Assembly: GCF_000612505.1 (NCBI RefSeq)
Contig: NZ_CP004078.1
Location: forward strand, 4,255,252 to 4,319,251
Direction: 5' to 3'
DNA: 64,000 nucleotides
From: Paenibacillus sabinae T27
GTDB lineage: Bacteria > Bacillota > Bacilli > Paenibacillales > Paenibacillaceae
Shown here in pieces: positions 1 through 37,260 of this stretch; position 1 is the stretch's first letter, and each line of letters opens with the position of its first letter. The notes under the pieces were generated by a model. It saw only the letters and a program-made list of their open reading frames with translations, had not been told where the DNA came from and ran no database searches. The position numbers and the translations under genes are program-made.

Positions 1-65
1 GCGGATAATGTTAGTACCACCAACATAGTCGTTAAAATGTAACTAATCATTATTATTTTCTTCAT
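1..65 (-). CDS. N-terminus of a secreted or lipoprotein cassette gene (partial)
   Basis: Reading leftward from 65, an ATG preceded by an AAGGAG site seven bases upstream opens a frame that runs off the window edge. The 21 visible residues begin MKKIIMIS and continue as a hydrophobic stretch rich in L, T and V, which is a typical signal-peptide start. It lies immediately downstream of the recombination-like site at 111-277, in the same orientation as the other cassette genes, so I read it as the next cassette gene. No function can be assigned because only the export signal is inside the window. Confidence 0.6.
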   Translation of the reverse strand, partial: MKKIIMISYILTTMLVVLTLS

Positions 66-110
66 CGAAAACTCCTTTTTTATTAATTTGAATATGTTCA
101 CTCGGGGATT

Positions 111-277
111 TCTGATAACGTTGTTGTGTTCCCGACGCCTCACTAACTTAAGCCCCGATAAGGACAGCCGCGATGTGGTTAGTCGGTACATGTATATCTG
201 CTGAACTCACTTCCTCGAATTTCCTCTTGCAGACTAAGAATCGCTTGCGATCCGCCGCGGGAATACGGTGCTGATGG
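111..277 (-). repeat. attC-like site, 5' outer box degenerate
   Basis: This is a member of the cassette-separating repeat family; the best-preserved copy is at 32738-32909. On the minus strand the 3' end carries AACGTTATC (R' box) preceded by the CGGGAACACAAC inner box. The opposite end has the conserved CCGTATTC inner box, but the outer box is damaged (CAGCAC where ATAACAC is expected). Interior arms are recognisable: an ACTAAC/GTTAGT stem and a CTGC/GCAG stem. It closes the cassette holding the acetyltransferase at 314-835. Confidence 0.65.
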
Positions 278-313
278 AGATGACTTATTCGAGTAAAACT
301 TCTGCAGTTTTTC

Positions 314-835
314 TTAATTGTTCTCATCAAGGCGCTTTGAATATCTCAATTGGATTAGCTCTTTTTCTCTTGTAATTGTTCTTTCTAATCCATCATTTAT
401 AAATCCCAAATGCTCATAAAAACACTTTGCACTTGTATTCTCTTTAAGGACCCATAAGGAAACATTAGAATATCCTGCTTCTTGCAGCCTATCAATCCCC
501 CAAAAAATTAGCTTCTTTCCATACCCATTCCCCCAATATCTCTTTAACGTATAAATGTTATAAATCTCTCCATATGTATTATCTAAGTCAGCATCTTTAT
601 TCATTCCAAATCCTATATAGCCAGCAGCTTCATTATTTACTAAAAGAATTGCAATAGTTTTAGCATCTTCTAGTAATGCTCTTTTATAGTGTATCTGTCG
701 TTTTTCAATTGAAAAAGCATTTAAATAGGTATCTGGGATAATGCCGGAATAAGTCTCACGATACGATTCTGAACTAACCAAGCCTAGTTGGAACCAATCT
801 TGATAATCCGCCCATCTAATCATCAATTCGCTCAT
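314..835 (-). CDS. GNAT-family N-acetyltransferase
   Basis: The product is about 173 residues and reads as a GCN5-related N-acetyltransferase that would move an acetyl group from acetyl-CoA to an amine; the substrate is unknown. The acetyl-CoA loop is visible as the YWGNGYGKKL segment after a beta strand, and the C-terminal NTSAKCFYEHLGF segment is the usual GNAT strand-helix end. The start at 835 is chosen because AAAGGAGA lies just upstream; twelve more in-frame codons precede it. Its first codons overlap the end of the P-loop gene at 816-1412, so the two share one cassette and are probably co-translated. The gene ends in the attC-like site at 111-277. Confidence 0.8.
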   Translation of the reverse strand: MSELMIRWADYQDWFQLGLVSSESYRETYSGIIPDTYLNAFSIEKRQIHYKRALLEDAKTIAILLVNNEAAGYIGFGMNKDADLDNTYGEIYNIYTLKRYWGNGYGKKLIFWGIDRLQEAGYSNVSLWVLKENTSAKCFYEHLGFINDGLERTITREKELIQLRYSKRLDENN

Positions 836-1412
836 AGCGATCTCCTTTATAACAAGCATATCCAAAAACATTTATTATTTTTTGTATAACAGACTGAACT
901 TGGTTTGATTCTTTAATTATAAATAAGTAATTTGCCTCCCCTTCTTCAGGATCTGATATATTCTCATTTTGTGATTCAGCTATTTGTCTGTTAAGTACTT
1001 CGGTAAAACTAGATGCTGTACGAAATATAGTTTTACTGCGCTGATTATTACTCACTCGGTCTTGAAGGATAGCGTCTGGCAGGTCAAAAAACACTAATAT
1101 GCTTTCAAAGCCTCTATTATGGAAATAACTAAGCAGCTCCGCTCGACCAATACGATTGCGATTTGAATTACAAAGTATTAGATGCAGATCAGTTTTTTGT
1201 ATAGCATAATCGACTATTGTATTTGTGAGGATATATTTGAAGGTATTTGACCCTTGTACCGGACGTAATGACTTATAGTAAGTATTTATGAATTCAGCAT
1301 GGTTATCTTGGTCAATTACTATTGAATTTTTTAATTGTTGTTCTAACTCTCTTGCAAAAGTGGTTTTACCACTATGAGTCTTACCAACTGTTATAATTAC
1401 CCGTCGTTTCAA
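816..1412 (-). CDS. P-loop ATPase/kinase-like protein
   Basis: A Walker A motif, GKTHSGKTT, sits near the N-terminus (about residues 10-18 from the chosen start). It is followed by a VIDQDNH segment and a later RVSNNQR arginine-rich lid-like segment, as in small nucleotide or sugar kinases (zeta-toxin/AAA_33-like folds). The frame is open to 1502, but the best ribosome site is TGGGGA before a TTG at 1412; ATGs at 1442 and 1457 are alternatives. Upstream DNA is the half repeat at 1505-1577, whose outer half is missing, so the natural start may have been altered by deletion. Its substrate is not predictable. Confidence 0.6.
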   Translation of the reverse strand: MKRRVIITVGKTHSGKTTFARELEQQLKNSIVIDQDNHAEFINTYYKSLRPVQGSNTFKYILTNTIVDYAIQKTDLHLILCNSNRNRIGRAELLSYFHNRGFESILVFFDLPDAILQDRVSNNQRSKTIFRTASSFTEVLNRQIAESQNENISDPEEGEANYLFIIKESNQVQSVIQKIINVFGYACYKGDRYERIDD

Positions 1413-1504
1413 TTTTAATCCCCATTCTATCCGGTTTAGCATCAAGCAACAGGACATTGCGTTTGAGTCGATTATTATATTTTTTTGGGTCAGATCTTTC
1501 ACCT

Positions 1505-1577
1505 AGTAAGTGCCGCCGAAACCTCTTCTGCAGACCTAGAGCGTCAGCCCTCAGCGTGAATGCTGTGTTTTGTGATG
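1505..1577 (-). repeat. Half attC-like site (5' half only)
   Basis: The plus strand shows the conserved arm end CTGCAGACC, a GGGCTGACGC-type hairpin and the inner box GCGTGAATGCTGTGTTTTGTGATG, which is the end that normally lies next to the upstream cassette gene. The other half, with the R' box and the first arm, is absent or unrecognisable toward 1440. The outer box is also altered (TTTTG in place of TTAT). This looks like a decayed site that has fused two neighbouring cassettes. Confidence 0.55.
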
Positions 1578-2108: not shown

Positions 2109-2150
2109 TCACCACCTGGAATCACATTCTAAAAAACATTTGCAATGATA

Positions 2151-2321
2151 TCAGACAGCGTTCTTGTGTTCCCGACCCACCACATAAAAGGAAGCTCAGA
2201 GCCAGATCCCAGCTAGCTCCCGACCAGGCGCGACTGCGCGGAGTGTCGCCTAATTTCCTCGAAGTCCCCCTTGGCGACAAAAGGCCGTAAGGCCCGATGG
2301 GGGAATGCGGTGTTATCGGAT
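2151..2321 (-). repeat. attC-like site
   Basis: A member of the cassette repeat family with both ends recognisable. On the minus strand it opens with CATCCGATAACACCGCATTC (R'' and inner box) and ends with GGGAACACAAGAACG followed by CTGTCTGA, where GTTATC is expected, so the R' box has one change. A GTCGCC/GGCGAC arm and a GGCCGTAAGGCC hairpin occupy the interior. It lies between the DinB gene (2346-2828) and the kinase gene at 1551-2108. Confidence 0.75.
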
Positions 2322-2345
2322 GTTTTTTCCCTCTTCGAATACTTA

Positions 2346-4033: not shown

Positions 4034-4807
4034 ATGTCAAAGAAGGTTTTGATCGTTTATGCGCACCCCGAGCCCACTTCGTTAACTAGCCAGTTCGTTG
4101 AGGCGGCTGTGCAAACACTTCAGGAGCAAGGGCACGAAGTCATGTTGTCCGACCTATACGGCATGAACTGGAAGGCCGTGTTCGATGAACACGACTTCCC
4201 GACCCGAGCTAATCCCGACCGATTGTCGTTCACAACAGAGTCGGGTAACGCCTATTCGACTGGCCAACAAACCGCAGACGTTGTATCCGAGCAACAGAAG
4301 CTGCTTGCCGCCGACGCGTTGATACTGCAGTTTCCGCTTTGGTGGTTTAGCATGCCGGCTATTCTCAAGGGATGGGTGGAACGGGTGTACGCTTATGGCT
4401 TCGGTTATGGCTACAATGGAGAAGGTAATCGCTATCGCTACGGCGATGGCGGCTTGAAGGGCAAGCGGGCAATGCTGTCAGTGGCCGTCGGGGGGCCGGA
4501 GAAAGACTATTCACCGCGAGGCATCAACGGACCGCTGGAGCAGCTGCTATTCCACGTCACTCACGGCATGCTCTTCTACCCCGGCATGGATGTGCTGCCT
4601 ATCCATGCGGTTTACGGGACCGGTCGCATGACTGCAGCCGACATAGACGTGGCGAAGACAGCCTGGCGCTCACGTCTCGAACATCTCTTCGATGAGGAAC
4701 CCATCCCCTTCCGGCGTCAAAACGGCGGAGACTATCCGGACAGACACGTGCTCGCAAGCGATATCGCTGTTGGACAGACCGGATTGACGGCTCACATTGC
4801 AGAATAG
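4034..4807 (+). CDS. NAD(P)H:quinone oxidoreductase, flavodoxin-like fold (NQO1/MdaB type)
   Basis: A 257-residue protein starting KVLIVYAHPEPTSLTSQF, the flavin-binding first loop of the Flavodoxin_2 family. The FPLWWFSMPAILKGWVERV segment contacts the isoalloxazine ring in this family, and AVGGPEKDYS follows. Such enzymes reduce quinones or azo compounds by two electrons with NAD(P)H. A GGGAGAG site precedes the ATG. It is divergent from the HxlR regulator, and a PEBP-family gene follows 32 bases downstream, making a likely two-gene operon closed by the terminator at 5398-5442. Its base composition is clearly higher in GC than the flanking cassette genes. Confidence 0.85.
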   Translation: MSKKVLIVYAHPEPTSLTSQFVEAAVQTLQEQGHEVMLSDLYGMNWKAVFDEHDFPTRANPDRLSFTTESGNAYSTGQQTADVVSEQQKLLAADALILQFPLWWFSMPAILKGWVERVYAYGFGYGYNGEGNRYRYGDGGLKGKRAMLSVAVGGPEKDYSPRGINGPLEQLLFHVTHGMLFYPGMDVLPIHAVYGTGRMTAADIDVAKTAWRSRLEHLFDEEPIPFRRQNGGDYPDRHVLASDIAVGQTGLTAHIAE

Positions 4808-4839
4808 CACGGCGCATAACGAAAAAGGGAGGAATTTTA

Positions 4840-5376
4840 GTGAGCAACAATCCGTTTGCAGGTTTACCGGAGGTTGCAGCTTTTCAGGTGACGAGTAAAG
4901 ATATTTCAGAGGGCCTTCCTCTATCGCGTGAACATTATTCGGGAATTTTTGGAGTGGAGGGCGGAAAAGATCTTTCTCCTCATTTGAAATGGGCGAATGC
5001 ACCGGAGGGGACGAAGAGTTTCGCTGTAACGGTATATGACCCGGATGCTCCGACTGGCTCGGGTTTTTGGCACTGGGCGGTCATTAACATCCCGGTGGAT
5101 GTAATAGAACTACCAACTGGAGCAGGCGATGAGATAGGTAACGGTTTACCGCAGGGTGCCTTGCAATTGCCTAACGATGCGCGAGCCGCACGCTTTATCG
5201 GTGCAGCGCCCCCGGCAGGGCACGGTCCTCATCGTTATTTTTTTGTAGTTCATGCTCTGGATGTAGAGAATATTGGCGTCGACTCTAACTGTACACCTGC
5301 ATTCTTAGGTTTTAATATGCTAAGCCATACATTAGGAAGAGCTGTACTCATGGTGACAGCAGAGATCGATAAATAG
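4840..5376 (+). CDS. YbhB/YbcL family (PEBP-like) protein
   Basis: A 178-residue protein of the bacterial phosphatidylethanolamine-binding-protein family. The hallmark order is visible: LSPHLKWANAPEGTKSFAVTVYDPDAPTGSGFWHWAVINIP at residues 45-87 (DPDAP and the HW pair form the ligand pocket), then PPAGHGPHRYFFVVHALD near residue 130. It starts with GTG at 4840 behind GGGAGGAATTTTA. Function in bacteria is not settled; anion or small-ligand binding is the usual guess. It sits in an operon with the quinone reductase. Confidence 0.85.
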   Translation: MSNNPFAGLPEVAAFQVTSKDISEGLPLSREHYSGIFGVEGGKDLSPHLKWANAPEGTKSFAVTVYDPDAPTGSGFWHWAVINIPVDVIELPTGAGDEIGNGLPQGALQLPNDARAARFIGAAPPAGHGPHRYFFVVHALDVENIGVDSNCTPAFLGFNMLSHTLGRAVLMVTAEIDK

Positions 5377-5893: not shown

Positions 5894-5936
5894 CTTTAAT
5901 TGTCCTTCCTATGATTATTAAGATTCCGAGTCCTTC

Positions 5937-6087
5937 CCATAACGTTTAGTTTTTACGACGTCGATCTTCCTTAGATAGCTCCTATATTAGGAAGATCGAT
6001 GTGTCCAGTTGCTCTGACGTTCAGCGTAATCTCTTCTACTGGACCAAGACCGGATGGCCCGAAGCGTGAATATATTGTTATCAGATG
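5937..6087 (-). repeat. attC-like site, short-arm subtype
   Basis: Minus-strand ends are CATCTGATAACAATATATTC (R'' and inner box) and TAAAAACTAAACGTTATGGG (R'). The first interior arm is a 12-base perfect stem, ATCGATCTTCCT with AGGAAGATCGAT, around the loop TTAGATAGCTCCTAT. The second arm is GTCCAGT with ACTGGAC. The truncated site at 11707-11831 has the same loop on a different stem. The stop codon of the acetyltransferase at 6081 lies inside the R'' box. Confidence 0.8.
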
Positions 6088-6701: not shown

Positions 6702-6869
6702 TTCAGATAACGTTCTTGTGTTCCGACGCCTCAACAACTTAAGCCCCGTTAGGGGCGGCCGCGGCGCGGTTAGTCGGTGCAGGTGTGTCGGCTGAATCCA
6801 CTTCCTCAAAATTCCTCTTGTTGACCAAGGGGCGTAGGCCCCGCAGCGGGAACACGGTGTTATCAGATG
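6702..6869 (-). repeat. attC-like site
   Basis: Minus-strand ends are GCATCTGATAACACCGTGTTC and CGGAACACAAGAACGTTATCTG, an almost perfect outer palindrome. The interior shows the GACTAACCGCG...CGGGGCTTAAGTTG arm with a CCCC/GGGG hairpin, and the GTCGGC arm (weakly paired here). It separates the hydrolase gene at 6863-7471, whose stop lies inside the R'' end, from the acetyltransferase at 6081-6668. Confidence 0.8.
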
Positions 6870-7513: not shown

Positions 7514-7683
7514 TTCCGATAACGTTGTTGTATTCACGACGCCTTACCGACTTAAGCCCCGTTAGGGGTGGCCGCGACGCGGTTAGTCGGTGCAGGTTTG
7601 TCTGCTGAATATGCTTCCCCGAATTGCCTCGGGCAGACCAAGGCTCCGTAAGAGCCGCAGCGGGAATACGGTGTTATGTGATG
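7514..7683 (-). repeat. attC-like site (copy shared with 36036-36202)
   Basis: Minus-strand ends are CATCACATAACACCGTATTC and GTGAATACAACAACGTTATCGG. Interior arms: CCGACT/AGTCGG enclosing a CCCCGTTAGGGG hairpin, GTCTGC/GCAGAC, and GGCTCCGTAAGAGCC. The site is nearly identical to the one at 36036-36202, and the gene it closes is also duplicated there. The conserved TTCTTCGA motif follows just outside the outer box at about 7692-7700. Confidence 0.85.
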
Positions 7684-7727
7684 CTCCTCACTTCTTCGAG
7701 TAAGCCTCCAAGTCGCCTTTAATCTTG

Positions 7728-8081
7728 TCAGTCTACTTCTGTCTTGATCTTGATTTGTATATAGTTTTTTGTTATTTGTTGTGTTGAGACTGTAGTCTCG
7801 TAATTGTCTTTAATGAATTTGAATCCTGATCCTATTTGTTCTTCGTATTTCCAGCCTTTGTCTTTCATATAATCCTTTAGATTTTCATATCCGTTGCCCT
7901 TTATATTCTTTGCCATGAATGTTGCATAATTTTGATTTTCATCTGTCTTTATCATGTCTTTATCGGTTGTTTGTAGTTTAATTATTCCCCAGAGGTTACT
8001 TGCTCCATATCTACTAACTGGTAAAAATATTAACACCATAACGATCAAAGTTGATATGAAAAGTAATTTTCCTTGCTTCAA
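7728..8081 (-). CDS. Membrane-anchored hypothetical protein, duplicated cassette (copy 1)
   Basis: A 117-residue protein with an N-terminal hydrophobic anchor (KLLFISTLIVMVLIFLPV) and a soluble part that contains NYATFMAKNIKGNGYENLKDYMKDKGWKYEEQIGSGF. It differs from the copy at 36247-36600 at only one residue that I can see (KDKGW here, KGKGW there). A TTG start with GTAGGTGAAACA upstream is used in both copies. No family is recognised. The gene, its spacer and its recombination site have been copied together, as expected for a mobile cassette. Confidence 0.75.
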   Translation of the reverse strand: MKQGKLLFISTLIVMVLIFLPVSRYGASNLWGIIKLQTTDKDMIKTDENQNYATFMAKNIKGNGYENLKDYMKDKGWKYEEQIGSGFKFIKDNYETTVSTQQITKNYIQIKIKTEVD

Positions 8082-8121
8082 TGTTTCACCTACTCACTGT
8101 TTTCATATGTCTTTGAGGGGT

Positions 8122-8160
8122 TTCACATAACGTTGTTGTATTCACGACGCGCCCCGGCGC
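8122..8160 (-). repeat. Half attC-like site (3' half only)
   Basis: Only the R' end survives: the plus strand shows CACATAACGTTGTTGTATTCACGACGC followed by GCCCCGGCGC, then unrelated DNA containing the end of the lipoprotein gene at 8171. The matching R'' half is deleted, so the two cassettes on either side are now joined. Confidence 0.6.
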
Positions 8161-8652: not shown

Positions 8653-8823
8653 TTCTGAAAACGTTCTTGTATTTTACGAACCCAAGAGGCTTAAAAGAGC
8701 GTCAGCGACTGGTTCGAAGACTTAGCCTCGCAGGGTTGTCTGCATGAATTCACTTCGCCGAAATTCAACGGGCAGACCAAGATCGGCGTAGCCAACCGCA
8801 GCGTGAATACAGTGTTTTTAGCG
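8653..8823 (-). repeat. attC-like site, outer boxes diverged
   Basis: Inner boxes (GTATTCACGC on one side, GTAAAATACAAGAACG on the other) and interior arms are conserved: GGCTTAAAAGAGC...CTTAGCC, TTGTCTGC/GGCAGACCAA and the GATCGGCG hairpin. The outer boxes have drifted (minus strand GCTAAAAACACTG and CGTTTTCAG). It belongs to the CGAACCC-GAGGCTTAA subtype. It separates the two lipoprotein genes. Confidence 0.75.
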
Positions 8824-10244: not shown

Positions 10245-10298
10245 TGAGTTCACCCACAAATTATTATTTTCTTTATGCTTTAAAACTAGTGCGCAATT

Positions 10299-10477
10299 TC
10301 GCCTAACGTTCTTGTATTTACGACGTCCCACCGACTTAAGGCTCCGTCAGGAGCCGGCTGCGCTTGGCAGTTAGTCGGTGCGGATGTGTCCGCCTGATCC
10401 CGCGCCCCTCCATTCTCCTCGGGCGGACCAATAGGCGGTTTTGCCAGCTCGCAGCGTGATTGCTTTGTTAGCTGAAG
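10299..10477 (-). repeat. attC-like site with canonical R' box
   Basis: On the minus strand it opens with CAGCTAACAAAGCAATCACGC and closes with GTAAATACAAGAACGTTAGGC. GTTAGGC fits the integron GTTRRRY rule exactly. Interior: CCGACT...AGTCGG arm carrying a GGCTCCGTCAGGAGCC hairpin, a GTCCGCC/GGCGGAC arm, and a short third arm. The stem of the second arm differs from GTCTGC/GCAGAC elsewhere while keeping pairing. Confidence 0.85.
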
Positions 10478-10864: not shown

Positions 10865-10901
10865 GTTATATCTTCCTCCAATTTGTTTTTGCACATTGAT
10901 T

Positions 10902-11023
10902 TCCTCTAACGTTGTTGCATTCACGAACCCGTAGGGTTGTCTGCTTAAATGTACTTCCCCGACTTAGCATCTATTAGCCCAAGGAGCGTAGGGCCCACAG
11001 CGTGAATACGTTGTTAGGCGATG
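10902..11023 (-). repeat. Short attC-like site with canonical R'' box
   Basis: At 122 bp this is the shortest two-ended copy. On the minus strand it opens with CATCGCCTAACAACGTATTC; GCCTAAC matches RYYYAAC exactly and is the usual integron sequence. It closes with GTGAATGCAACAACGTTAGAGG. The first arm is reduced to ACCC/GGGT-sized remnants; the GGAGCGTAGGGCCC arm is kept. The outer TTCTTCGAA motif follows at 11032-11040. Confidence 0.85.
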
Positions 11024-11108
11024 TCTTCTCTTCTTCGAATTCTTTGCGCTGCTTTCATATATCTTAATCACCTTTTCTTTAATTATTGCTTCAGTGTCTA
11101 GACGGTTT

Positions 11109-11265
11109 CGCCTAACGTTTCCGCATTTCACGAACCCGAGAACCTTTAAGACCCCTCAGAATCCGACCGCGACGCAGTTAGGGTTCGAGGGTTGTTCGCC
11201 TGAGCTTAGCTTCCTCGAATTACCTCGGGCGGACCGAGGGCCAAAAAGGCCCGAAGTGTGAGCCG
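11109..11265 (-). repeat. attC-like site, R'' end lost
   Basis: The R' end is canonical (minus strand CGTTAGGCG). The interior is intact, with the GAACCC...GGGTTC arm, the GTTCGCC/GGGCGGAC arm, and the GGGCCAAAAAGGCCC hairpin. At the other end the inner box (GTGTGAGCCG) runs into acetyltransferase coding sequence where the outer box should be. The joint looks like a deletion that removed the R'' box and the 3' end of the gene. Confidence 0.75.
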
Positions 11266-11665: not shown

Positions 11666-11706
11666 TATTGAGATCGCTCCTTTTGATTTGATTGGAATCT
11701 CCGGTT

Positions 11707-11831
11707 TCCTCTAACGTTCTTATTCACGAAACGCCCCAGCCTTAGATAGCTCTTATCTTAGGCTGGAGCGTTTGTCGTCTGAGCTTTTTCGATGATTATA
11801 CATCTGACAACCAAGGGGCGGTAGCCCCGAA
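11707..11831 (-). repeat. attC-like site truncated at the island junction
   Basis: The R' end is present (plus-strand CCTCTAACGTTCTTATTCACG). The first arm is a long stem, AACGCCCCAGCCT with AGGCTGGAGCGTT, around the loop TAGATAGCTCTTATCTT also seen at 5937-6087. The second arm TTGTC...GACAA and the GGGGCGGTAGCCCC hairpin follow, then the site stops at CCGAA; the inner and outer boxes of the far end are missing. This is the left boundary of the surface-protein block. Confidence 0.75.
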
Positions 11832-11941: not shown

Positions 11942-14900
11942 TTATTTGTTATAAATCCTATAAAGAAACACTGCAGCTTCAGCTCTTGTTGTATTTCCTG
12001 CAGGATTAATTCTACTTTTGGATCCAACAATTAAACCTTCCTTAACCAGAGCTGCAATGCTATTTACTGCATACCCTGAAATCACTGATTTATCACTGTA
12101 TTTGCCCAGATCAGAGGAAGAACCTGTTGCGCTTATTTTCTTTACCATTCTCAGGGCTTTTTCTGAAAGTACCATCATATCCTGCCTTGATATTGCAGCT
12201 TTAGGGTTAAACAAATTATTGCCTGATCCAGTAGCTATACCAAGCTTTTTAGCAATACCTACTGCATTATAGTAATAATCTCCCTCTTTCACATCCCCAA
12301 AGTTGCCGTTCACATCAGTTGTAAGTCCAAGTGTCTTGACAAGCAGCATCATAAAGTCAGCCCTTGTAATGTTTGCTGCCGGTGAGTAGGTTTTTGCCCC
12401 TTTACCTGAGATGATGCCTTTTGATGCGAGCACTTCTATCTGCTTTTTTGCCCATCCATAATCTTCTATATCGCGGAAGGTGTTATATACCGATGCAACT
12501 GCATATTTGCTGAAATGGGTGGTGCTGAATATGACCATACCTGTTGCTGCATCATACTTTGCACTCGGTACAGGGATTAAGCTTCCTGACCCGTCGATGT
12601 AGAATACGGTAATATGCTCCGGATCATTCAATTCCTGTGCAGTCGGAGTATACTCCACTGCAATGGTAACCGGTGCGTTATTATTGCTCCAGATAGTTGA
12701 ATTTCCATCCACTGACAGTCCTAATTCAATAACAGGCTTATCGCCTATGTATGTTCTGGCTTCTTCAGTAAGCGTTGAAACATCTGCTTTGGAAATACTT
12801 AAAGTTACGTTCCTTGCATTCGCTCCTTTTGCTTTATCTAGCATGTTACCCGGTAAGGTGACTGTCGCAAACTCTGTTTTCAGTTTTACCTTCTTTTCAG
12901 AAGTGTTTTGTGTTAAAACGCTGGCTGGAAGAGTAATCAAATAGGATTTTATCCCTTCTACCTTTGGAATGACCACAAGGACTGTCTTTGACCCATCTAA
13001 GCTGCTCTGAACCTTTGAGAATCCGGCAGTGATTGATTCCAAATCTATTGCTGCAGTTGCTATTCCTGAATCTTTACCCAGAATCTGTACTTCAGCCGTA
13101 ATTATTCCATCCTTCCCCAAATCGGCGCCGACAGTGATCGTATAGGTCATTTTTGTTTTCCGATTCTGGGCAGTCACAACAAGGGTATCCCCTGTGGCAA
13201 CAGGGTTATGCACATTGCCTGTGTCCCAGGTTTGATGGCTTTCTCCCTTGACAAGATGACTAAGGAAGGTCTCTTTTGATGTGTTCACAGGTACATTTTT
13301 TATGGTTCCGCTCGTCGCACTTGTAGTACTCACGGTATATTTATCCGATGTGATTTTCGCTATTGAACTTAGACCTGCTTGTTGAATGGTGAAGGAATAT
13401 CTCCCATCCATCCCCAATATCGGCTGTCCGTTTTCGTTAGTTGACTGTCCGGAACCGCCAAACAACCCGGCAATTAAATTCACATAAACAGGCATGTTGG
13501 AAGAAATATCGAAGTCCGGCGTCTTGGGCAGTTCATAATAGATCCACATGGCTGCCGGATCAACAGTATCCATTCTGTTGTCACCGCTGTAGTTGATGAC
13601 ATATTTGTTGGTGCATAGATTATAGGGATTCGCTGAATCGAGCCCTCCGGCCGTGATCTGATTCTCCACCTTCAACCATTCCGGACCATCCGCAGGTGTA
13701 TAGGTAGTAGAGCTTCCGCCGCTGTAGCCGGTAGCATACTTGCTTGTACGAAAGAGATTTGTAAAGAAGGTGCTCATGTTCTTGGCGCTGGCCCACTGCG
13801 TTGGACCCGTACGGGTATCAACCACGATCTTGATCAGCTTGTTCCCTGTGCTGTTTGGCCCCATTGTTCCGCCATCGCGGATGTCCTCTTCGGTCAGTTC
13901 ATTTCCTTCTACCTTTTTAACATAATAGGTGGAACTATAGGGATATAGCGATGAAGTATTTTTATCATAACTATTGATGCGGCTATTAAAGGAAAATACG
14001 CCCGCTTCGTTTGCGCGGCTCGCATCGACATATTCCCAAATCTCTGGATGCAACTTCACCTCCTGAATTGTGAAATAGCTGTCGACACTAACGACATCAT
14101 TTACCCCTTTGACCACGCCTGCAGGAAGATTCGCAGACAGCAGAATATCGCAGTTCGCAATCTGGAAGCCCCCGTTCACTACAGGTACCGAATTCGTAAA
14201 GGTGGAGAAATAGCCGTTTGCTGCATCCTTTGTGCACCGGATTACCAGATTCCCGTTACTGTCGACACTGACAGTTGCTCCAGCTTTCAGGGCGTTAATG
14301 ATGCCCTTTTTCACACCGGGATATTGTTTCTTCAATGCGTCGTTGACTGAGGCAATACTGCTTGCTCCCTTGGGATCCAATCCTACAAAGCGGTCATATG
14401 CCGTAATGTCATTGGTTTTGTCAACATATGGAAAGTATGCGCTGCTGTATGCATTCAATACACTCGTAATAAACGTATCATATGAAACCACATCGTAATC
14501 GTTTTTCGATTTGTCGAACTTCACACCGTTGAATATCAAACCGTCGATAATAGCATCTTTATATGCTGAGACATTGTCTGCAAAGCTGTATCCATTGCTT
14601 AACGCAATAGTGATCGTCAGCCCATCCCCGTTAATATCCCATTCTGTTACCGTGTTTGCTCCTGAAAAACTGGCCGTAACAAGTGATCTGATACTCTGAA
14701 CTACCGTCACATCCTTATAGTCCTGAGCTTTGACCACAATGGTATAGTCATTGGTACTGGTGAAGAGGCTGCCGTTCAAACTGATTTTCCCTTCGCTGAT
14801 TGTATACCTGTCAGCCGTGAGAATGGTTCCGTTCACACTGATGCTTGTAATCGCTGCCCTGTAGGCGGCATCATCGGCAAACGTTAAATCTATTGTCTTT

Positions 14901-16957
14901 CCGACATAATTGTCAGTATTATCTGCAGTAAAATCAGGCGCTTTCTTCTTTACCGCTATGGTATTAACCGTTATGGTATAATTTGCTTTTGTTGTGCCAT
15001 CCTGTGCCGTTACAACAAGGGTATCCCCTGTTACGACTGGGTCATGCACATTTGCCGTGTCCCACGTTTGATCGCTTTCCCTCTTGGTCAGATTCCCAAG
15101 AAATGTCGCTTTCGAGGTATTATACGGCACATTGGTGATCGTTCCCGCCGCCGTATTGACGGTGTAGCTGCTTGAAGAGATTGTTGTTACAGTACTGGGT
15201 AAGATATTAAGCGTTATGGTGTAAGCAGCTTTTGTTGTGCCGTCCTGGGCAGTTACAACCAAGGTATCCCCTGTGGTTACAGGATCATGCAGATTGTCTG
15301 TATCCCACGTTTGATGGCTTTCCCCCTTGGCCAGATTCCCAAGAAATGTCGCTTTCGAGGTATTATACGGCACATTGGTGATCGTTCCCGCCGCCGTATT
15401 GATGGTGTAGCTGCTTGAAGAAATTGTTGATACCGTTGATTTTGGACCGTCTGCTTTAATGGTAAAGGAGAATCTTCCATCCATCCCTAATATCGGCTGT
15501 CCGTTTTCGTTAGTCGACTGTCCGGAGCCTCCGAAAAAACCGGCTATTAAATTCACATAAACAGGCATATTGGAAGAAATATCGAAGTCTGACGTCTTGG
15601 GCAGTTCATAATAGATCCACATGGGTGCCGGATTTATTTGATCGGCTCTGTGGTCACCGCTGTAGTTGATGACGTATTTGTTGGTGCCCACATAATAGGG
15701 ATTCGCTGGATCCAGCCCTCCGCTTGTGATCTGATCCTCCACCTTCAACCATTCCGGGTCATCCTGAGGCGTATAGGTGTTAGAGCTTCCGCCGCTGTAG
15801 CCGGTAGCATCCTTATTGGTGCGGAAAATATTAGTAAAGAAGGTGCTCATATTCTTGGCGCTGGCCCACTGGGTGGGACCCGTACGGGTATCAACCACAA
15901 TCTTGATCAGCTTGCTCCCTGTTCCGTTTGGTCCCATTGTTCCGCCATTGCGGATGTCCTCTTCAGTAAGTTCATTTCCTTCTACTTTTTTAATATAATA
16001 GGTGGTACTGTAGGGATAAGGGGATGAAGTATTACTATCATTACCATCTATGCGGCTATTGAAGGAATATACACCCGCTTCGTTCGCGCGGCTCGCATCA
16101 ACATATTCCCAAATCTCCGGATGCAATTTCATCTCCTCTATTGTGAAATAGCCATCCACTGTAACAACATCATTTACACCATTAACCACCCCTGCAGGAA
16201 GTTCGGCAGACAGCAGAATATCGCAATTCGCAATCTGGATACCCCCATTCACTACAGGTACCGAATTCGTAAAGGTGGAAAAATAACCATTTGCCGCATC
16301 CTCTGTGCACCGGATTACCAGATTCCCGTTGCTGTCGACACTGACGGTTGCTCCAGCCTTCAGAGCGTTAATGATGCCCTTTTTCACACCGGGATATTGT
16401 TCTTTCAATTCATCGGTGACTGAGGCAGTACTCCTTGCTCCCTTAGGGTCCAGTCCTACAAAGCGGTCATAGACTGTGACATTGTCTACCGATACACCGT
16501 CTTGTACATTAAGAAACGGGAAATAAGAGCTTCCATACGCATTTAAAGCGCTAGTTATAAATGTATCAAAGGGAATTACATCGTATTGGTTCGTCGTTTT
16601 GTTAAACAACTCTCCGTAAAATGTCAGCCCGTCAATAATGGCATCCTTATAGTCCGAAACATTGTCTGCAAAGCTGGAGCCACCGCCTAACGCAATAGTG
16701 ATCGTCAGCCCATCCCCGTTAACATCCCATTCCGTTACCGTTTTTGTTCCTGAAAAACTCGCCGTCGCAGTATAGGTTGCTTCATAAACAGAAGTGTTGA
16801 CGCTGGCATAGGTTGCGGCCGCTTCGTTGCTTGAACTTGAAGTGTCTGCAAGCACCGGCATTGTACCAAATATGCTTGTCAAGATGAGTAAAAAACTAAG
16901 CAGCAACGTGAAGTGGGAATACCCCCTCATTCTTCTTTTCTCTGTAGATTTTTGCAT
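11942..16957 (-). CDS. Large SLH-anchored surface protein with duplicated 440-residue domain and HID domain
   Basis: A 1671-residue exported protein. A signal peptide (about residues 1-38) is followed by an unfamiliar domain of about 440 residues (61-503, opening with TASFSGTKTVTEWD and closing near GMDGRFSFTIKADG). Two beta-sandwich repeats follow (about 506-665, TISSSSYTxNTAAGTITNVP), then a hemoglobin-interacting-type domain (PF07550, once DUF1533; about 669-756, with PDFTADNTDNYVGKTIDLTF). A second copy of the 440-residue domain (about 761-1194) comes next, then a third beta repeat, an Ig-like stretch and three SLH modules (about 1496-1671) that bind pyruvylated wall polymer. GGAGTGAAG precedes the ATG. 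It is the last gene of the block; the HID domain suggests contact with heme proteins, by inference. Confidence 0.8.
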   Translation of the reverse strand: MQKSTEKRRMRGYSHFTLLLSFLLILTSIFGTMPVLADTSSSSNEAAATYASVNTSVYEATYTATASFSGTKTVTEWDVNGDGLTITIALGGGSSFADNVSDYKDAIIDGLTFYGELFNKTTNQYDVIPFDTFITSALNAYGSSYFPFLNVQDGVSVDNVTVYDRFVGLDPKGARSTASVTDELKEQYPGVKKGIINALKAGATVSVDSNGNLVIRCTEDAANGYFSTFTNSVPVVNGGIQIANCDILLSAELPAGVVNGVNDVVTVDGYFTIEEMKLHPEIWEYVDASRANEAGVYSFNSRIDGNDSNTSSPYPYSTTYYIKKVEGNELTEEDIRNGGTMGPNGTGSKLIKIVVDTRTGPTQWASAKNMSTFFTNIFRTNKDATGYSGGSSNTYTPQDDPEWLKVEDQITSGGLDPANPYYVGTNKYVINYSGDHRADQINPAPMWIYYELPKTSDFDISSNMPVYVNLIAGFFGGSGQSTNENGQPILGMDGRFSFTIKADGPKSTVSTISSSSYTINTAAGTITNVPYNTSKATFLGNLAKGESHQTWDTDNLHDPVTTGDTLVVTAQDGTTKAAYTITLNILPSTVTTISSSSYTVNTAAGTITNVPYNTSKATFLGNLTKRESDQTWDTANVHDPVVTGDTLVVTAQDGTTKANYTITVNTIAVKKKAPDFTADNTDNYVGKTIDLTFADDAAYRAAITSISVNGTILTADRYTISEGKISLNGSLFTSTNDYTIVVKAQDYKDVTVVQSIRSLVTASFSGANTVTEWDINGDGLTITIALSNGYSFADNVSAYKDAIIDGLIFNGVKFDKSKNDYDVVSYDTFITSVLNAYSSAYFPYVDKTNDITAYDRFVGLDPKGASSIASVNDALKKQYPGVKKGIINALKAGATVSVDSNGNLVIRCTKDAANGYFSTFTNSVPVVNGGFQIANCDILLSANLPAGVVKGVNDVVSVDSYFTIQEVKLHPEIWEYVDASRANEAGVFSFNSRINSYDKNTSSLYPYSSTYYVKKVEGNELTEEDIRDGGTMGPNSTGNKLIKIVVDTRTGPTQWASAKNMSTFFTNLFRTSKYATGYSGGSSTTYTPADGPEWLKVENQITAGGLDSANPYNLCTNKYVINYSGDNRMDTVDPAAMWIYYELPKTPDFDISSNMPVYVNLIAGLFGGSGQSTNENGQPILGMDGRYSFTIQQAGLSSIAKITSDKYTVSTTSATSGTIKNVPVNTSKETFLSHLVKGESHQTWDTGNVHNPVATGDTLVVTAQNRKTKMTYTITVGADLGKDGIITAEVQILGKDSGIATAAIDLESITAGFSKVQSSLDGSKTVLVVIPKVEGIKSYLITLPASVLTQNTSEKKVKLKTEFATVTLPGNMLDKAKGANARNVTLSISKADVSTLTEEARTYIGDKPVIELGLSVDGNSTIWSNNNAPVTIAVEYTPTAQELNDPEHITVFYIDGSGSLIPVPSAKYDAATGMVIFSTTHFSKYAVASVYNTFRDIEDYGWAKKQIEVLASKGIISGKGAKTYSPAANITRADFMMLLVKTLGLTTDVNGNFGDVKEGDYYYNAVGIAKKLGIATGSGNNLFNPKAAISRQDMMVLSEKALRMVKKISATGSSSDLGKYSDKSVISGYAVNSIAALVKEGLIVGSKSRINPAGNTTRAEAAVFLYRIYNK

Positions 16958-17086
16958 CTACTTCACTCCATTTCATTATTAAAATAAAGGCAGCGGTTTC
17001 TGCCCGGTTTTTTTTCAAAGTTATATAAAAACAGCGATAACTGCTGCTTTACGCAGCATAGCCTGCCGTCTGGATTTTCAATTTTC

Positions 17087-17162
17087 AAGAAGAAACGCCT
17101 GACGGCGTCCTTGAAGGACGCAAGTACGTTTCTCGTAGAAATATTAATTCTTATATTAAAAA
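17087..17162 (-). repeat. Two-hairpin intergenic repeat, copy 1 (partial)
   Basis: The plus strand begins CAAGAAGAAACGCCTGACGG and contains GTACGTTTCTCGTAGAAATA, forming the first hairpin (GAAACG...CGTTTC). The second hairpin found in copies at 38493, 39043 and 59663 is shortened here to ATTCTTATATTAAAAAA. Together with the hairpin at 17166 and no frame of note, it fills the 327-base gap between the two SLH genes. Confidence 0.7.
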
Positions 17163-17165
17163 AAG

Positions 17166-17207
17166 AATATTTTGCAGAAGAGCTCATGGGCTCTTCTGCA
17201 AAATATT
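17166..17207 (-). terminator. Perfect 18-bp inverted repeat, probable terminator
   Basis: Left arm AATATTTTGCAGAAGAGC is exactly complementary to the right arm across a six-base loop. On the minus strand it is followed by CTTTTTTT, so it should terminate transcripts of the SLH gene ending at 17285. The next gene (11942-16957) would then need its own promoter or readthrough. Confidence 0.6.
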
Positions 17208-17284
17208 GATTTACCAGAATTTAATAGAACGCGGTCTCTCAAAAGTCTCGATCGAGGTTTTCTTATATAGCCGATTGCTGTTTG

Positions 17285-26669: not shown

Positions 26670-26670
26670 A

Positions 26671-32418: not shown

Positions 32419-32698
32419 ATGACACAAAAATTCCATAGGTTAAGAAGCAATTTAAAACGAAGGTAGTACTGGAGGGTCTTATAGGAAGAGTAGACGGTCA
32501 ACGAGATTCCCGCCAAATATGAAATGAGTTCCGTGATAATTAGCCGGTGGAACGCCGGTTTTCTGAGCCGGGCGTCCATAGTGTTCGAGAAAGGGGAGAG
32601 TGAAGCGGACAAGATGAGAAAGGAGTGCGAAGCAAGCAGGAACGCCTGGAAAGCTGGTCGGTCAACTTACCGTTGAAGTCGGCTGGCTAAAGTTTTAA
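32419..32698 (+). pseudogene. Decayed IS3-family orfA (transposase N-terminal subunit)
   Basis: Plus-strand frames joined by two or three frameshifts give almost the full orfA product: MTQKFHR, then KKQFKTKVVLEGL, then TVNEIPAKYEMSSVIISRW with NAGFLSRASIVFEKGESEAD, then KLVGQLTVEVGWLK. This is the helix-turn-helix plus leucine-zipper layout of IS3 orfA proteins. orfB is absent. It sits exactly at the right edge of the inserted surface-protein block. Confidence 0.7.
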
Positions 32699-32710
32699 GA
32701 AGTTGCTCAT
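32687..32710 (-). pseudogene. Start of an interrupted cassette gene
   Basis: Directly after the attC-like site at 32738-32909, in the cassette direction, AAAGGAGATTAAAA is followed by an ATG at 32710. It encodes only MSNFLKL before a stop formed with the IS3 remnant. Ribosome site, spacing and position are those of a normal cassette gene, so I infer a gene cut by insertion of the block. Its 3' part is not recognised at the left junction near 11831. Confidence 0.4.
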
Positions 32711-32737: not shown

Positions 32738-32909
32738 TTCACCTAACGTTCATGTATTCCTGAACCCGAGAAGCCTAAGCCAGCTTTAGCAGGCGGGTCC
32801 GACGGACTTGGCTTCGCAAGGTTGTCTGCCTGACTCCACTTCTTCGAACTCCCTCGGGCAGACCAAGGAGCCGTCAGGCTCCGCCGCAGGAATACGGTGT
32901 TAGATGATG
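32738..32909 (-). repeat. attC-like site, fully canonical outer boxes (model copy)
   Basis: This is the clearest copy. On the minus strand it starts CATCATCTAACACCGTATTC: ATCTAAC fits RYYYAAC, and CCGTATTC is the 5' inner box. It ends GGAATACATGAACGTTAGGT: GTTAGGT fits GTTRRRY, and GGAATAC is the 3' inner box, complementary to the first. Between them lie three arms: GGCTTC...GAAGCC-type with a nested hairpin, GTCTGCC/GGGCAGAC, and GGAGCCGTCAGGCTCC. The plus-strand TTCTTCGA motif lies just outside at 32918-32926. Integron attC sites share the outer and inner boxes and 60-140 bp length; the three-armed interior here is unusual. Confidence 0.88.
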
Positions 32910-33619: not shown

Positions 33620-33671
33620 GAATTAACCTCCGAGAATAAGTGTTTTAGTTTTTATTATTGTTGCAGCCATT

Positions 33672-33838
33672 TCCTCTAACGTTTCCGCATTCACGAACCC
33701 GAGAGGCTTAAGTGAGCGCCAGCGAGCGGGTCGCCAGACTTAGCCTCGCAGGGTTGTCTACCTGCCAATTTCTTCTTTGAAATCTCTTCCGCAGACCCAG
33801 GGCGTTAGCCCGCAGCGTGAATGCTGTGTTATAAGATG
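33672..33838 (-). repeat. attC-like site
   Basis: Minus-strand ends are CATCTTATAACACAGCATTC and GTGAATGCGGAAACGTTAGAGG. It belongs to the CGAACCCGAGAGGCTTAA subtype: GAGGCTTAAG...CTTAGCCTC arm with a nested GCGCCAGCGAGC hairpin, GTCTACC arm (weakly paired with GCAGACCC), and a GGGCGTTAGCCC hairpin. Confidence 0.82.
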
Positions 33839-33956
33839 TCTCCGTCTTCGAAGCATCCCCTTTAAGTTATGTTGTTTGATAAATATGATTCTATTCCATT
33901 CGCGAGGTAAAAACAGTCACAGATCTGGAACCTTACATACTCTATAGTCTTTAGTC

Positions 33957-34055
33957 TTAATGTTTCTTTAATATAGGTATTACTCCGATCGTTATTAGCC
34001 TTACTTCTTCTAAAATTTTTGATACATCAATTTTCTTTAGTTCATGTTCATCAAT
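33957..34055 (-). pseudogene. Coding-like fragment without start
   Basis: A minus-strand frame of about 32 codons with strong codon character reads IDEHELKKIDVSKILEE and then VRLITIGVIPILKKH before TAA at 33957-33959. A stop lies immediately upstream and there is no start codon or ribosome site. It may be the last part of a decayed gene in the same cassette as the small protein at 34081. The rest of 33839-33956 shows nothing. Confidence 0.3.
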
Positions 34056-34080
34056 TTAAAATAGATGGATAACCAATCTT

Positions 34081-34242
34081 TTATTTTTCTAAAATTACCA
34101 ATGAATATACAGCATTATTACCACCACCGCCACCCATCGCACTTTGACTAACTAATTTCCATCCGGTATTTAACAATTCATTTAATTCCTCTAAGTTATT
34201 TTTCTTCTCAGTTAAGAAATAGACTACTATTGCTTTTTGCAT
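34081..34242 (-). CDS. DUF4177-like small protein (53 aa)
   Basis: The frame starts with ATG at 34242 behind GAAGGAAG and ends with TAA at 34081-34083. The peptide MQKAIVVYFLTEKKNN continues with LEELNELLNTGWKLVSQSAM, a run of five glycines, and AVYSLVILEK. The order strand, helix, GWKLV, strand is that of DUF4177-type proteins. Function unknown. It is alone in its cassette, between sites at 33672 and 34288. Confidence 0.7.
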   Translation of the reverse strand: MQKAIVVYFLTEKKNNLEELNELLNTGWKLVSQSAMGGGGGNNAVYSLVILEK

Positions 34243-34287
34243 TTTTGCACTTCCTTCTTCTTTATAGTTTTACTCATAACAAGGATT

Positions 34288-34451
34288 TCTTATAACGTTA
34301 TTGTATTCACGAACCCGAGAGGCTTAAAGGAGCGTAGCGACTGGGTCGAAGACTTAGCCTCGCAGGAGTTGTCTGCCTGAATCCACTTCTCCGTATTATC
34401 TTCAACAGACCAAGGGGGTAGCCCGCAGCGTGAATGTTGTGTTATACGAAG
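34288..34451 (-). repeat. attC-like site
   Basis: Minus-strand ends are CTTCGTATAACACAACATTC and GTGAATACAATAACGTTATAAG. The arms are of the GAACCCGAGAGGCTTAA subtype: GAGGCTTAA...TTAGCCTC with nested GGAGCGTAGCGACT, then TTGTCTG...CAGACCAA and a short GGGGGTAGCCC hairpin. Confidence 0.8.
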
Positions 34452-34941: not shown

Positions 34942-34991
34942 TTTGAAGTCTCCTTCTAAAATTGTTGGTTTTTAATAGGGTTAGCAAGTTT

Positions 34992-35159
34992 TCGTATAAC
35001 GTTGTTGCATTCCCGAATCCGAAAGGCTTAAAGGACGAATGCGACTGGGTGGCTTGCCACTTAGCCTTGCAGGGTTGTCGCCTGAATTTGCTTGCCTGTT
35101 ATAACTTCTGGCGACCAAGGGCCGTAAGGCCCGCCGCGGGAATGCGGTGTTATCTGATG
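34992..35159 (-). repeat. attC-like site
   Basis: Minus-strand ends are CATCAGATAACACCGCATTC and GGGAATGCAACAACGTTATACG. Second arm is GTCGCC paired with GGCGAC, a compensated change from the GTCTGC/GCAGAC of other copies; third arm is GGGCCGTAAGGCCC. The conserved plus-strand CTTCCTCGAATT motif follows at about 35170-35181. Confidence 0.83.
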
Positions 35160-35257
35160 GATCGGCCCCACTTCCTCGAATTGAGACAGGACGTCGACCC
35201 ACATAATCTTTATTGTATTGTAAGTCTCCAATATTTATTGAGTTTTATATAGTTTTT

Positions 35258-35911
35258 CTATTTTCTTGCTGTCACAAGGATCGCTACTATTCTATGTTTA
35301 TTTCCATATGTATCCTTAAATTCATATACTTTGTCCTTTAATACAACATCACTAAACTTGCGAAACATCCCACACAACTCTTCGCGTGTCGTATAGTAAT
35401 GTGGTATATTCTCTTCTCCTGGTCTTCCTCCTAAAAATGTGTTCGGTGCAATTTCATCGCCAATCCCATAACTTGGATCTTCTGTAGTTACAAAATCCGT
35501 TACAACTATTCCATCATTTTTAAGTATTCGATATATCTCATTGATTCCTTTTTGAATTTCTTCCCGAACACCATGACCTTGAACCCAAATACATAATACT
35601 CCATCAAATATATTATCTTCTAATGTCATTGAGTACATATTCTGTATACTATATTCCGCATTAGATTTCTCTGATCGTTCTAATAATTCCTTAGTTATTT
35701 CTATTCCTGTTTCTGAGATATCACATGCATGTACATTGAATCCTTTATCTACCAAATAATACGTATGTCGTCCTGTCCCACATCCTAAATCTAAAATTTT
35801 CTTGCATTTATTTTCTAAGAATACGTTAGCAGCCTCTACAACCGAGTCTAGAACATCAATTTGTACTTTCCCTTGTTCCACATAAATTTTTTCCCAACTG
35901 CCGTTATTCAT
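35258..35911 (-). CDS. Class I SAM-dependent methyltransferase
   Basis: 217 residues. Motif I ILDLGCGTGRHTYYLV near residue 39, FNVHACDISETGIEITKELL, then FDGVLCIWVQGHG and IYRILKNDGIVVTDFV. The long GIGDEIAPNTFLGGRPGEENIPHYYT segment before the last strands recurs in small Bacillus methyltransferases of the TehB-like group. GAGAGGAGACAAGG precedes the ATG. Between its stop and the site at 34992-35159 lie about 98 bases without a frame. Confidence 0.85.
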   Translation of the reverse strand: MNNGSWEKIYVEQGKVQIDVLDSVVEAANVFLENKCKKILDLGCGTGRHTYYLVDKGFNVHACDISETGIEITKELLERSEKSNAEYSIQNMYSMTLEDNIFDGVLCIWVQGHGVREEIQKGINEIYRILKNDGIVVTDFVTTEDPSYGIGDEIAPNTFLGGRPGEENIPHYYTTREELCGMFRKFSDVVLKDKVYEFKDTYGNKHRIVAILVTARK

Positions 35912-36035
35912 TATTTCCTTGTCTCCTCTCTATTTTGGGAAATGTCGTTACAATGAGGTTTGCGATTTTCTATTTACTTCAAGCAACACGATGTTGCGAA
36001 TGAATTACCTTCAAGTCATCATTGGGGCCGATCTT

Positions 36036-36202
36036 TCAGATAACGTTATTGTATTCACGACGCCTTACCGACTTAAGCCCCATAGGGTGGCCGCGACGCG
36101 GTTAGTCGGTGCAGGTTTGTCTGCTGAATATGCTTCCCCGAATTGCCTCGGGCAGACCGAGGCTCCGTAAGAGCCGAAGCGGGAATACGGTGTTATGTGA
36201 TG
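36036..36202 (-). repeat. attC-like site (copy shared with 7514-7683)
   Basis: Nearly identical to the site at 7514-7683: same CATCACATAACACCGTATTC opening, same three arms (CCGACT/AGTCGG with a CCCCATAGGG variant, GTCTGC/GCAGAC, GGCTCCGTAAGAGCC), same GTGAATACAATAACGTTATC closing with one base change. It closes the duplicated cassette. Confidence 0.85.
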
Positions 36203-36246
36203 CCCCTCACTTCTTCGAGTAAGCTTCCAAGTCGCCTTTAATCTTG

Positions 36247-36600
36247 TCAGTCTACTTCTGTCTTGATCTTAATTTGTATATAGTTTTTTGTTATTTGTTG
36301 TGTTGAGACTGTAGTCTCGTAATTGTCTTTAATGAATTTGAATCCTGATCCTATTTGTTCTTCGTATTTCCAGCCTTTGCCTTTCATATAATCCTTTAGA
36401 TTTTCATATCCGTTGCCCTTTATATTCTTTGCCATGAATGTTGCATAATTTTGATTTTCATCTGTCTTTATCATGTCTTTATCGGTTGTTTGTAGTTTAA
36501 TTATTCCCCAGAGGTTACTTGCTCCATATCTACTAACTGGTAAAAATATTAACACCATAACGATCAAAGTTGATATGAAAAGTAATTTCCCTTGCTTCAA
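36247..36600 (-). CDS. Membrane-anchored hypothetical protein, duplicated cassette (copy 2)
   Basis: 117 residues, nearly identical to the protein at 7728-8081 (one visible change in KGKGW). N-terminal anchor helix, soluble domain with NYATFMAKN and TQQITKNYIQIKIKTEVD near the C-terminus. A TTG start with GTAGGTGAAACA is kept. The surrounding spacer and the flanking site on the downstream side are also nearly identical, while the upstream sites differ (8122 half site versus 36642 full site), fitting copying of a single cassette unit. Confidence 0.75.
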   Translation of the reverse strand: MKQGKLLFISTLIVMVLIFLPVSRYGASNLWGIIKLQTTDKDMIKTDENQNYATFMAKNIKGNGYENLKDYMKGKGWKYEEQIGSGFKFIKDNYETTVSTQQITKNYIQIKIKTEVD

Positions 36601-36641
36601 TGTTTCACCTACTCACTGTTTTCATATGTCTTTAAGGGGTT

Positions 36642-36828
36642 TCACATAACGTTTCCGTGTTCACGACGTCCATTCACCCTAAGCTGCCAGCGTCGTGCGT
36701 CGAGCACGATCTCGGCCGGCCGCGATGCGGTTGGGTGAATGGATGTGTCCCGGCAACTACATCTTCGACTTATATGCCGGGACCGAGGCGGCTTGTCCGC
36801 CGAAGCGTGAACACATTGTTATCTGATG
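36642..36828 (-). repeat. attC-like site, divergent arm subtype
   Basis: Minus-strand ends are CATCAGATAACAATGTGTTC and GTGAACACGGAAACGTTATGTG. The first arm is a different stem, CATTCACCC with GGGTGAATG, carrying an inner GTCGTGC...GCACGA hairpin; the second arm is GTCCCGGC/GCCGGGAC. At about 187 bp it is the longest copy. Confidence 0.8.
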
Positions 36829-36877
36829 CCAGCAACTTCTAAGAGTTACCCTTAAAATCGCTTTATTCATGCTTTAT

Positions 36878-37147
36878 TTATTTGTTTATTGGCGACTTTT
36901 CCTTTTCCCATTCTGTAGGCCCTTCATTAGAAGGTATGAATCTCCTCCAATAGTCACCGGTTTGTTGATCAAATATTATGATATTGTTTTCGTTTACATT
37001 TATCATTTGATATCGATTGCCATTTTGGTCTTTACTGTCGTTCTGATTTGATTCTCCTTTAAAAGATATACCTAATAGAAAGCCAAATATTCCAGAAATG
37101 AGAACTAGCGTCAAAATAGAGACTGCGATAATTGTCTTGTTTTTCAT
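36878..37147 (-). CDS. Small signal-anchored protein
   Basis: 89 residues: N-terminal membrane anchor (KTIIAVSILTLVLISGIFGFLLG), then an asparagine/aspartate-rich part and NNIIIFDQQTGDYWRRFIPS followed by NEGPTEWEKEKSPINK. It is the first cassette after the putative attI site, the position from which integron cassettes are normally expressed best. GAGAGGAAT precedes the ATG at 37147; the frame is open upstream into the site. No family known, although short Bacillus proteins with a similar YWRRFIPS region exist. Confidence 0.65.
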   Translation of the reverse strand: MKNKTIIAVSILTLVLISGIFGFLLGISFKGESNQNDSKDQNGNRYQMINVNENNIIIFDQQTGDYWRRFIPSNEGPTEWEKEKSPINK

Positions 37148-37189
37148 TATTCCTCTCCCTCGATTCACTAGAAAATCCATCTTGCTGGT

Positions 37190-37260
37190 TTCAGATAACG
37201 TCTTATCTCTGAACTTCATGTATCCCTTTAATCCGGGTTATCTCTGTACTTCGTGAATCC
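37190..37260 (-). other. Putative attI-like insertion site
   Basis: The first cassette begins at an AACGTTATC-type box not flanked by any attC-like arm. On the minus strand two direct repeats, CGAAGTACAGAGATAA (complement of 37238-37253) and TGAAGTTCAGAGATAA (complement of 37203-37218), lie 35 bases apart, and the second abuts GACGTTATCTG. A recombination box next to direct integrase-binding repeats, at the end of the array beside the recombinase gene, is the layout of attI in integrons. The repeat sequence is not that of known attI sites. Confidence 0.5.

Follow-up and report, generated by a model that had tools for sequence, protein, structure and literature searches.

In the bacterial phylum Firmicutes, integrons are extremely rare according to a published survey, in which IntegronFinder 2.0, run on 22,301 chromosomes, yielded for this phylum a single complete integron, from Limnochorda pilosa, plus a few clusters of attC sites lacking integron-integrases (CALIN) (PMC9024848). 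In integron integrases, the switch from double- to single-strand recombination is reportedly due to the I2 helix (PMC7790495). Here we describe a locus of Paenibacillus sabinae T27 in which a tyrosine recombinase gene stands beside an attI-like site and a row of small genes, each typically followed by a long folded repeat. The window analysed, 64,000 nucleotides in length, corresponds to positions 4255252-4319251 of the complete 5.27-Mb chromosome. We put at roughly 0.87 the probability that this is an integron-like gene-capture system made up of the recombinase, the attI-like site and cassettes that end in attC-like sites and are moved as circles. Judged from sequence, it works like an integron with a distinct recombinase and is not an IntI integron by the usual definition. 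An earlier note on this DNA had called the array integron-like, which fits its mode of working; the recombinase, having no IntI-specific I2 region, sets it apart from the canonical integron. Literature searches of open-licence papers, preprints excluded, returned no published account of the system among the matches listed.

Cassette ends match cassette starts

If a cassette moves as a unit with its cut between AAC and GTT, then in an array the bases after GTT are those of the next cassette, and the R'' box of a site is expected to agree with the start of the cassette to which it belongs. When comparisons were anchored on AAC and GTT and only the bases beyond these anchors were scored, all three variable R'' bases equalled the cassette's own start in 131 of 187 cassettes from 26 loci, versus 16 of 187 for the adjacent downstream box (Fisher p 9e-37, with cassettes of related genomes not being independent). 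Shuffling gave a mean of 14.1 matches and a maximum of 27 in 2000 shuffles. The window's first cassette, the one joined to attI, has nine bases in common between its R'' and its start. The own-start match is most plainly read as the footprint of units circularising between AAC and GTT.

A sequence profile built from 13 window sites, and so tuned to the genus, found 18 attC-like sites in the window, all on the minus strand, from 110 to 36828 and scoring 16-140 bits. The whole profile is spanned by 12 of the 18; the others are partial or have one end decayed (e.g., 1514-1577, 8122-8149 and 11706-11831). As a control, 2 Mb of Markov-shuffled sequence gave one match, of 11 bits, under all 18 window sites. 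The earlier note's observation of about 19 imperfect palindromes between minus-strand genes is confirmed, except that two of the genes lie on the plus strand; it lacked two further full sites left of the window (locus L018) and the recombinase gene. All attC-like and partial sites below are profile matches.

110..270, minus strand: attC-like site with decayed 5' box (GNAT cassette)
1514..1577, minus strand: partial site, 5' end only
2151..2322, minus strand: attC-like site
4034-5376, plus strand: two genes, an exception to the minus-strand array
5934..6087, minus strand: attC-like site (GNAT cassette)
6702..6869, minus strand: attC-like site (dienelactone hydrolase cassette)
7514..7683, minus strand: attC-like site of cassette 7523-8131, whose other copy is 36044-36650
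8122..8149, minus strand: partial site, 3' end only
8653..8819, minus strand: attC-like site
10298..10477, minus strand: attC-like site
10901..11023, minus strand: attC-like site, short form
11107..11261, minus strand: attC-like site with decayed 5' box
11706..11831, minus strand: weak attC-like site, 23 bits
11942..32174, minus strand: 20-kb block without internal sites that splits the array into two cassette zones and is kept in the close relative G071
32738..32909, minus strand: attC-like site (methyltransferase cassette)
33671..33838, minus strand: attC-like site
34287..34451, minus strand: attC-like site (Nudix cassette)
34991..35159, minus strand: attC-like site (methyltransferase cassette)
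36035..36202, minus strand: attC-like site (of cassette 36044-36650, which nearly repeats 7523-8131)
36641..36828, minus strand: attC-like site of the first cassette
36878..37219, minus strand: gene of the first cassette, without a Pfam match; the cassette body shares 98.9% identity with an internal one of G071
37200..37262, minus strand: putative attI-like site; a similar motif lies 3' of the recombinase stop in relatives
37331..38449, minus strand: tyrosine recombinase of 372 amino acids, with an N-terminal domain (~1-66) followed by SAM-like and catalytic domains

The array is a row of mostly single-gene, mostly co-oriented and functionally unrelated cassettes with turnover, the exceptions being the two plus-strand genes and the 20-kb block. 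All three scanned proteins of that block carry S-layer domains. A non-coding stretch of unknown nature (32450-32700), with no Rfam match at gathering score, adjoins it. Among 10 scanned cassette proteins, matches to defence genes were confined to two weak ones.

Cassette duplication, turnover and sharing

The two copies of the duplicated cassette (7523-8131 and 36044-36650) are 97% identical, and identity stops at AACGTT. In G071, both flanks, attI, the recombinase and the 20-kb block are syntenic and 80-94% identical, whereas 13 of 17 window cassette bodies had no match in the 120 kb around its array. The four that matched did so at 98.9%, at 77% over 718 nt, at 86% over 504 of 3608 nt and at 79% over 70 nt. 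The first of these lies at attI in the window and internally, beside another attC-like site, in G071; those matching at 77% and 86% lie on the opposite side of the 20-kb block. Elsewhere in G071 (3174624-3175024) there is a further partial match, of 80%, to a site and part of cassette 33680-34296. Another genome, G045, is as close as G071 (core region 89-90% identical) and has sites nearby, with no recombinase detected.

The Nudix cassette is shared more widely. Including its site, it has an 875-bp match of 94% identity in G002 and a match of 90% in G096, and the gene part of the cassette reaches 90% identity in G036, 86% in G027 and 84% in G061; core region identity to these five genomes is 65-71% (71% for G002 core DNA).

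The earlier note had reckoned with two outcomes that would speak for mere repeats: a gene order kept between related strains, and repeats scattered genome-wide between core genes. The order is not kept at the syntenic G071 locus, as the 4 of 17 matched bodies show, and in the host genome 10 of 14 matches to the end pattern fall in the array, three in a second small array and one alone, the reversed control giving none. This second array (L150 6336-9519, genome positions 2268335-2271518, plus strand) has about five attC-like sites and, by eye, Nudix- and acetyltransferase-like genes; there is no Phage_integrase match within 100 kb of it.

Anatomy of the sites

Read in the direction of the cassettes, a site has the approximate form nnnTAAC-Ann-GTATTCACGC ... 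GCGTGAATAC-nnGAAC-GTTA. The 145 non-redundant sites selected by the profile are 123-225 nt long, with several conserved hairpins, and 77 of them, from 25 loci, were aligned (160-182 nt, at most four per locus). TAAC and GTTA are near-invariant in this alignment, and the box sequences given in the earlier note are correct (ATCTAAC...GTTAGGT at 32738-32909, GCCTAAC at 11023, GTTAGGC at 10298). The strict consensus named in that note, RYYYAAC and GTTRRRY, fits 34 of 150 and 32 of 150 boxes, respectively, across the window and relatives (of 163 sites, 13 had no AAC or AACGTT located and were left out).

In the structure drawn for the aligned sites, 84.6% of cells are paired, compared with 33-41% when partners were slid by 1-3 columns and 75.5% after shuffling. 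Double changes occur in 25 of 38 pairs overall and in seven of nine pairs of the L stem, which is paired in 91.8% of cells. The L'' arm and the internal hairpins are preserved through compensatory changes. At its three variable columns the R arm pairs poorly, being unpaired in 42, 35 and 35 of the 77 sites. By inspection of the alignment, and with no dedicated test for extrahelical bases, the L stem has no evident bulge in the 77 sites, and unequal spacers are present. Covariation in the L stem and hairpins, together with the match of R'' to the cassette's own start, indicates that the fold of the site, with its paired arms, is conserved.

The attI-like site

The putative attI site adjoins the recombinase gene. 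The first cassette joins it at 37199/37200, a junction shown by the same cassette lying beside another attC-like site in G071. The window copy reads TTCAGAGATAAGAC^GTTATCTGAAA, and many loci have in common a post-stop motif, ...TTCGTGAATAAGAC^GTTAnnnGAAA, frequently with an upstream copy, CACGAAGTTCGT (e.g., L050, L081, L089, L090, L093). L051, L084, L085 and L087 differ from the common motif, and two Clostridium loci have a different repeat followed by GTTAnnTGAAAT. The TTCGTGAATA box of the attI motif is present in attC L' too. Stretches that resemble each other around CCGCAACGTCCTGTTGCT come after attI or a site at L083 and L088, in similar form at L051, and at about 9550 in L150; perhaps they are a common cassette without an open reading frame.

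A recombinase without I2

The recombinase gene adjoins the array and is co-directional with the cassettes. Residues R229, K254, H319, R322, H345 and Y354 are invariant across 47 aligned sequences. The nearest named relatives are from Paenibacillus, and by fold the closest solved structure is 2a3v, from an integron integrase (E 9.5e-16). The protein has no I2 region: 17-21 residues lie between positions 274 and 292, as against 57-58 in 12 of 12 IntI, 11 of which come from one narrow clade. The short set comprises the window protein, 36 group members and a Chryseobacterium plasmid protein, and the host's own Xer-type recombinases are likewise short here. Since I2 is the attC-reading region of integron integrases, site recognition must differ.

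The integron-integrase model TIGR02249 gave the window protein 203 bits and four relatives 193-207, versus 396 and 508 for two IntI, with a cut-off of 265. NF040815 ('site-specific tyrosine recombinase/integron integrase') matched at 225.3, just over its cut-off of 220, and the XerC and XerD models fell far under theirs. In a tree, 37 recombinases group together (94/89) apart from the 12 IntI (100/99). Approximately unbiased (AU) tests rejected neither a common origin with IntI (p 0.29) nor a clade that takes in the Chryseobacterium protein (p 0.38). Nine rows were omitted from the group tree and eleven from the AU-test tree (distant host recombinases, one badly aligned fragment, L060).

Residues 1-66 are predicted to fold as b-b-a-b-b-a-b, and G33, W36, W43 and P46 do not vary among 16 diverse pieces. 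Modelled alone, this domain reached low confidence (predicted local distance difference test, pLDDT, 67), and the best lead is that it is, at most, HARP-like (PF07443). The G071 recombinase is 91% identical over residues 136-372, and its gene lacks part of the region between. Two contigs with a long recombinase also carry a shorter one that has no N-terminal domain (L052 19837-20676, L126 4282-5118). Two near copies of a short sequence lie upstream of the window gene (38490-38570 and 39045-39125), and a SAM riboswitch lies beyond them (45801-45945, minus strand).

Distribution

Recombinase matches (E <= 1e-30) were found in 30 of 100 genus genomes, among them the host, and 10 of these 30 show in-frame stops. 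At E <= 1e-40, 40 of 398 genomes of the phylum had matches, a count that includes shorter proteins without the N-terminal domain. Named hosts include Clostridium. Of 22 recombinase loci from the genus, Saccharibacillus and Cohnella, 20 have sites downstream of the recombinase and on its strand; the other two (L081, L092) have under 0.7 kb of contig there. A 16-base end pattern reached five or more occurrences in 42 of 100 genus genomes (hand count; the reversed control never more than three times), namely in 27 of 30 with the recombinase versus 15 of 70 without (Fisher p 1e-10).

In other classes the profile finds few or no sites at most loci. AttC-like repeats are visible in L052, L127 and L130, and repeats of unsettled nature in L128; no array was shown for L054, L056, L059 and L061-L063. 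A simple stem finder run on 10 such loci gave own-start matches in 11 of 21 testable cassettes and downstream matches in 2 of 21. All own-start matches were in L130, L131 and L133 (11 of 15); the finder returned one candidate or none in L125, L127, L128 and L141, and no own match in L052, L134 and L138. L141 is a Chryseobacterium plasmid (NZ_CP041688.1; Bacteroidota) that encodes, in the region 11971-18700, a relative 40.5% identical over residues 8-372, followed by small genes that alternate with long folded repeats. By eye, a cassette there starts GTTATACGAT and its R'' reads ATCGTATAAC; the stem finder found none.

Discussion

Several results weigh against an integron-like capture system. 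Within the array, R'' and R' pair at chance for the variable bases, which is expected only if circles are the active form. In the window alone, the script found a full own-start match in 5 of 10 cassettes, with a downstream match in 0 of 10; of the five failures, one (10910) arose from the script choosing the wrong site, the true start beside site 11107 matching over nine bases, and the remaining ones lie in the distal part or beside the S-layer block. Most sites fail the strict box consensus. The structure used for the covariation test was drawn by the analyst from the same 77-site alignment, the pair-type count (65 versus 61.2 shuffled) is not above shuffling, and DNA-fold z-scores are modest and alike on both strands (means -1.9 and -2.4). 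As for the protein, I2 is missing, the model reached a predicted template modelling score (pTM) of 0.50, the archaeal Xer 4a8e ranks above 2a3v (second) by sequence alone, and an SOS-type box, sought with a relaxed Bacillus LexA motif, appeared in only 1 of 34 upstream regions. Lastly, the 15 genomes noted above have many pattern matches and no detected recombinase.

Some of these points would suit a recombinase that moves cassettes through double-stranded core sites, using L'-R' alone and no single-strand folding. The lack of I2, which is held to have brought single-strand use (PMC7790495), the modest z-scores and the TTCGTGAATA box common to attI and attC L' all lean that way. Such a site would not need an L'' arm and internal hairpins kept by compensatory changes, however, nor an R'' that tracks its own cassette's start, and we consider this explanation unlikely.

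We give little credence to a canonical integron with an ordinary IntI, acquired horizontally and then degraded. The site anatomy, attI and cassette content are those of integrons, and the weak R-box consensus could be decay; but I2 is absent from the window protein and all 36 aligned group members while the catalytic residues are intact, TIGR02249 scores lie below the cut-off and below those of the two IntI, and the two sets of recombinases form separate tree groups. Least credible of all are palindromic elements merely settling behind genes that do not move as units, for although the sites are imperfect palindromes and occur also in genomes with no detected recombinase, a palindrome that had inserted would still have R'' complementary to R' inside the same element, whereas adjacent variable bases agree at chance and cassette ends match in 131 of 187, gene and site are common to G002 and G096 as one block, the duplicate's identity stops at AACGTT, and the sites keep one orientation beside one recombinase family.

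Under the integron-like reading, the recombinase would act on attC-like and attI sites, excising and inserting cassettes as circles joined between AAC and GTT. By analogy with known integrons, the attC-like site may be used as a folded single strand. New cassettes would enter at attI, consistent with the same cassette lying at attI here and beside another site in the relative. The N-terminal domain, HARP-like at best, is proposed to help recognise the folded site. A broader proposal, which we advance tentatively and at somewhat less than even odds, is that this is a second kind of integron: a Bacillota-centred lineage would have gained folded-site capture without I2, with a HARP-like domain that binds single strands or junctions in its place, and would have moved to plasmids outside the phylum.

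Recombinases beside such sites are not passed by an integron-integrase model such as TIGR02249. The system provides a natural integrase lacking I2 with which to test how recombination of single strands arose, along with a new cassette pool and possibly a second tool for DNA shuffling.

Like sedentary chromosomal integrons, the locus has a recombinase beside attI, mostly co-oriented small accessory genes with imperfect-palindrome sites, an AAC/GTT core and turnover; unlike them, it has a recombinase without I2 and with an extra N-terminal domain, and sites of 123-225 nt with several hairpins. XerA, XerC and XerD share the fold family, and the window protein matches NF040815 just over its cut-off, but here an array and attI lie beside the gene and the protein has the extra domain. 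Archaeal integrons in metagenome-assembled genomes likewise place intI, attI and attC arrays outside the usual hosts, although their IntIs are reported to keep the IntI-specific additional domain (PMC9668308). In Treponema-type integrons, compared here by their published description, intI is read toward attI, in the direction of the cassettes, as at our locus, but the enzymes are filed as integron integrases (PMC3607928).

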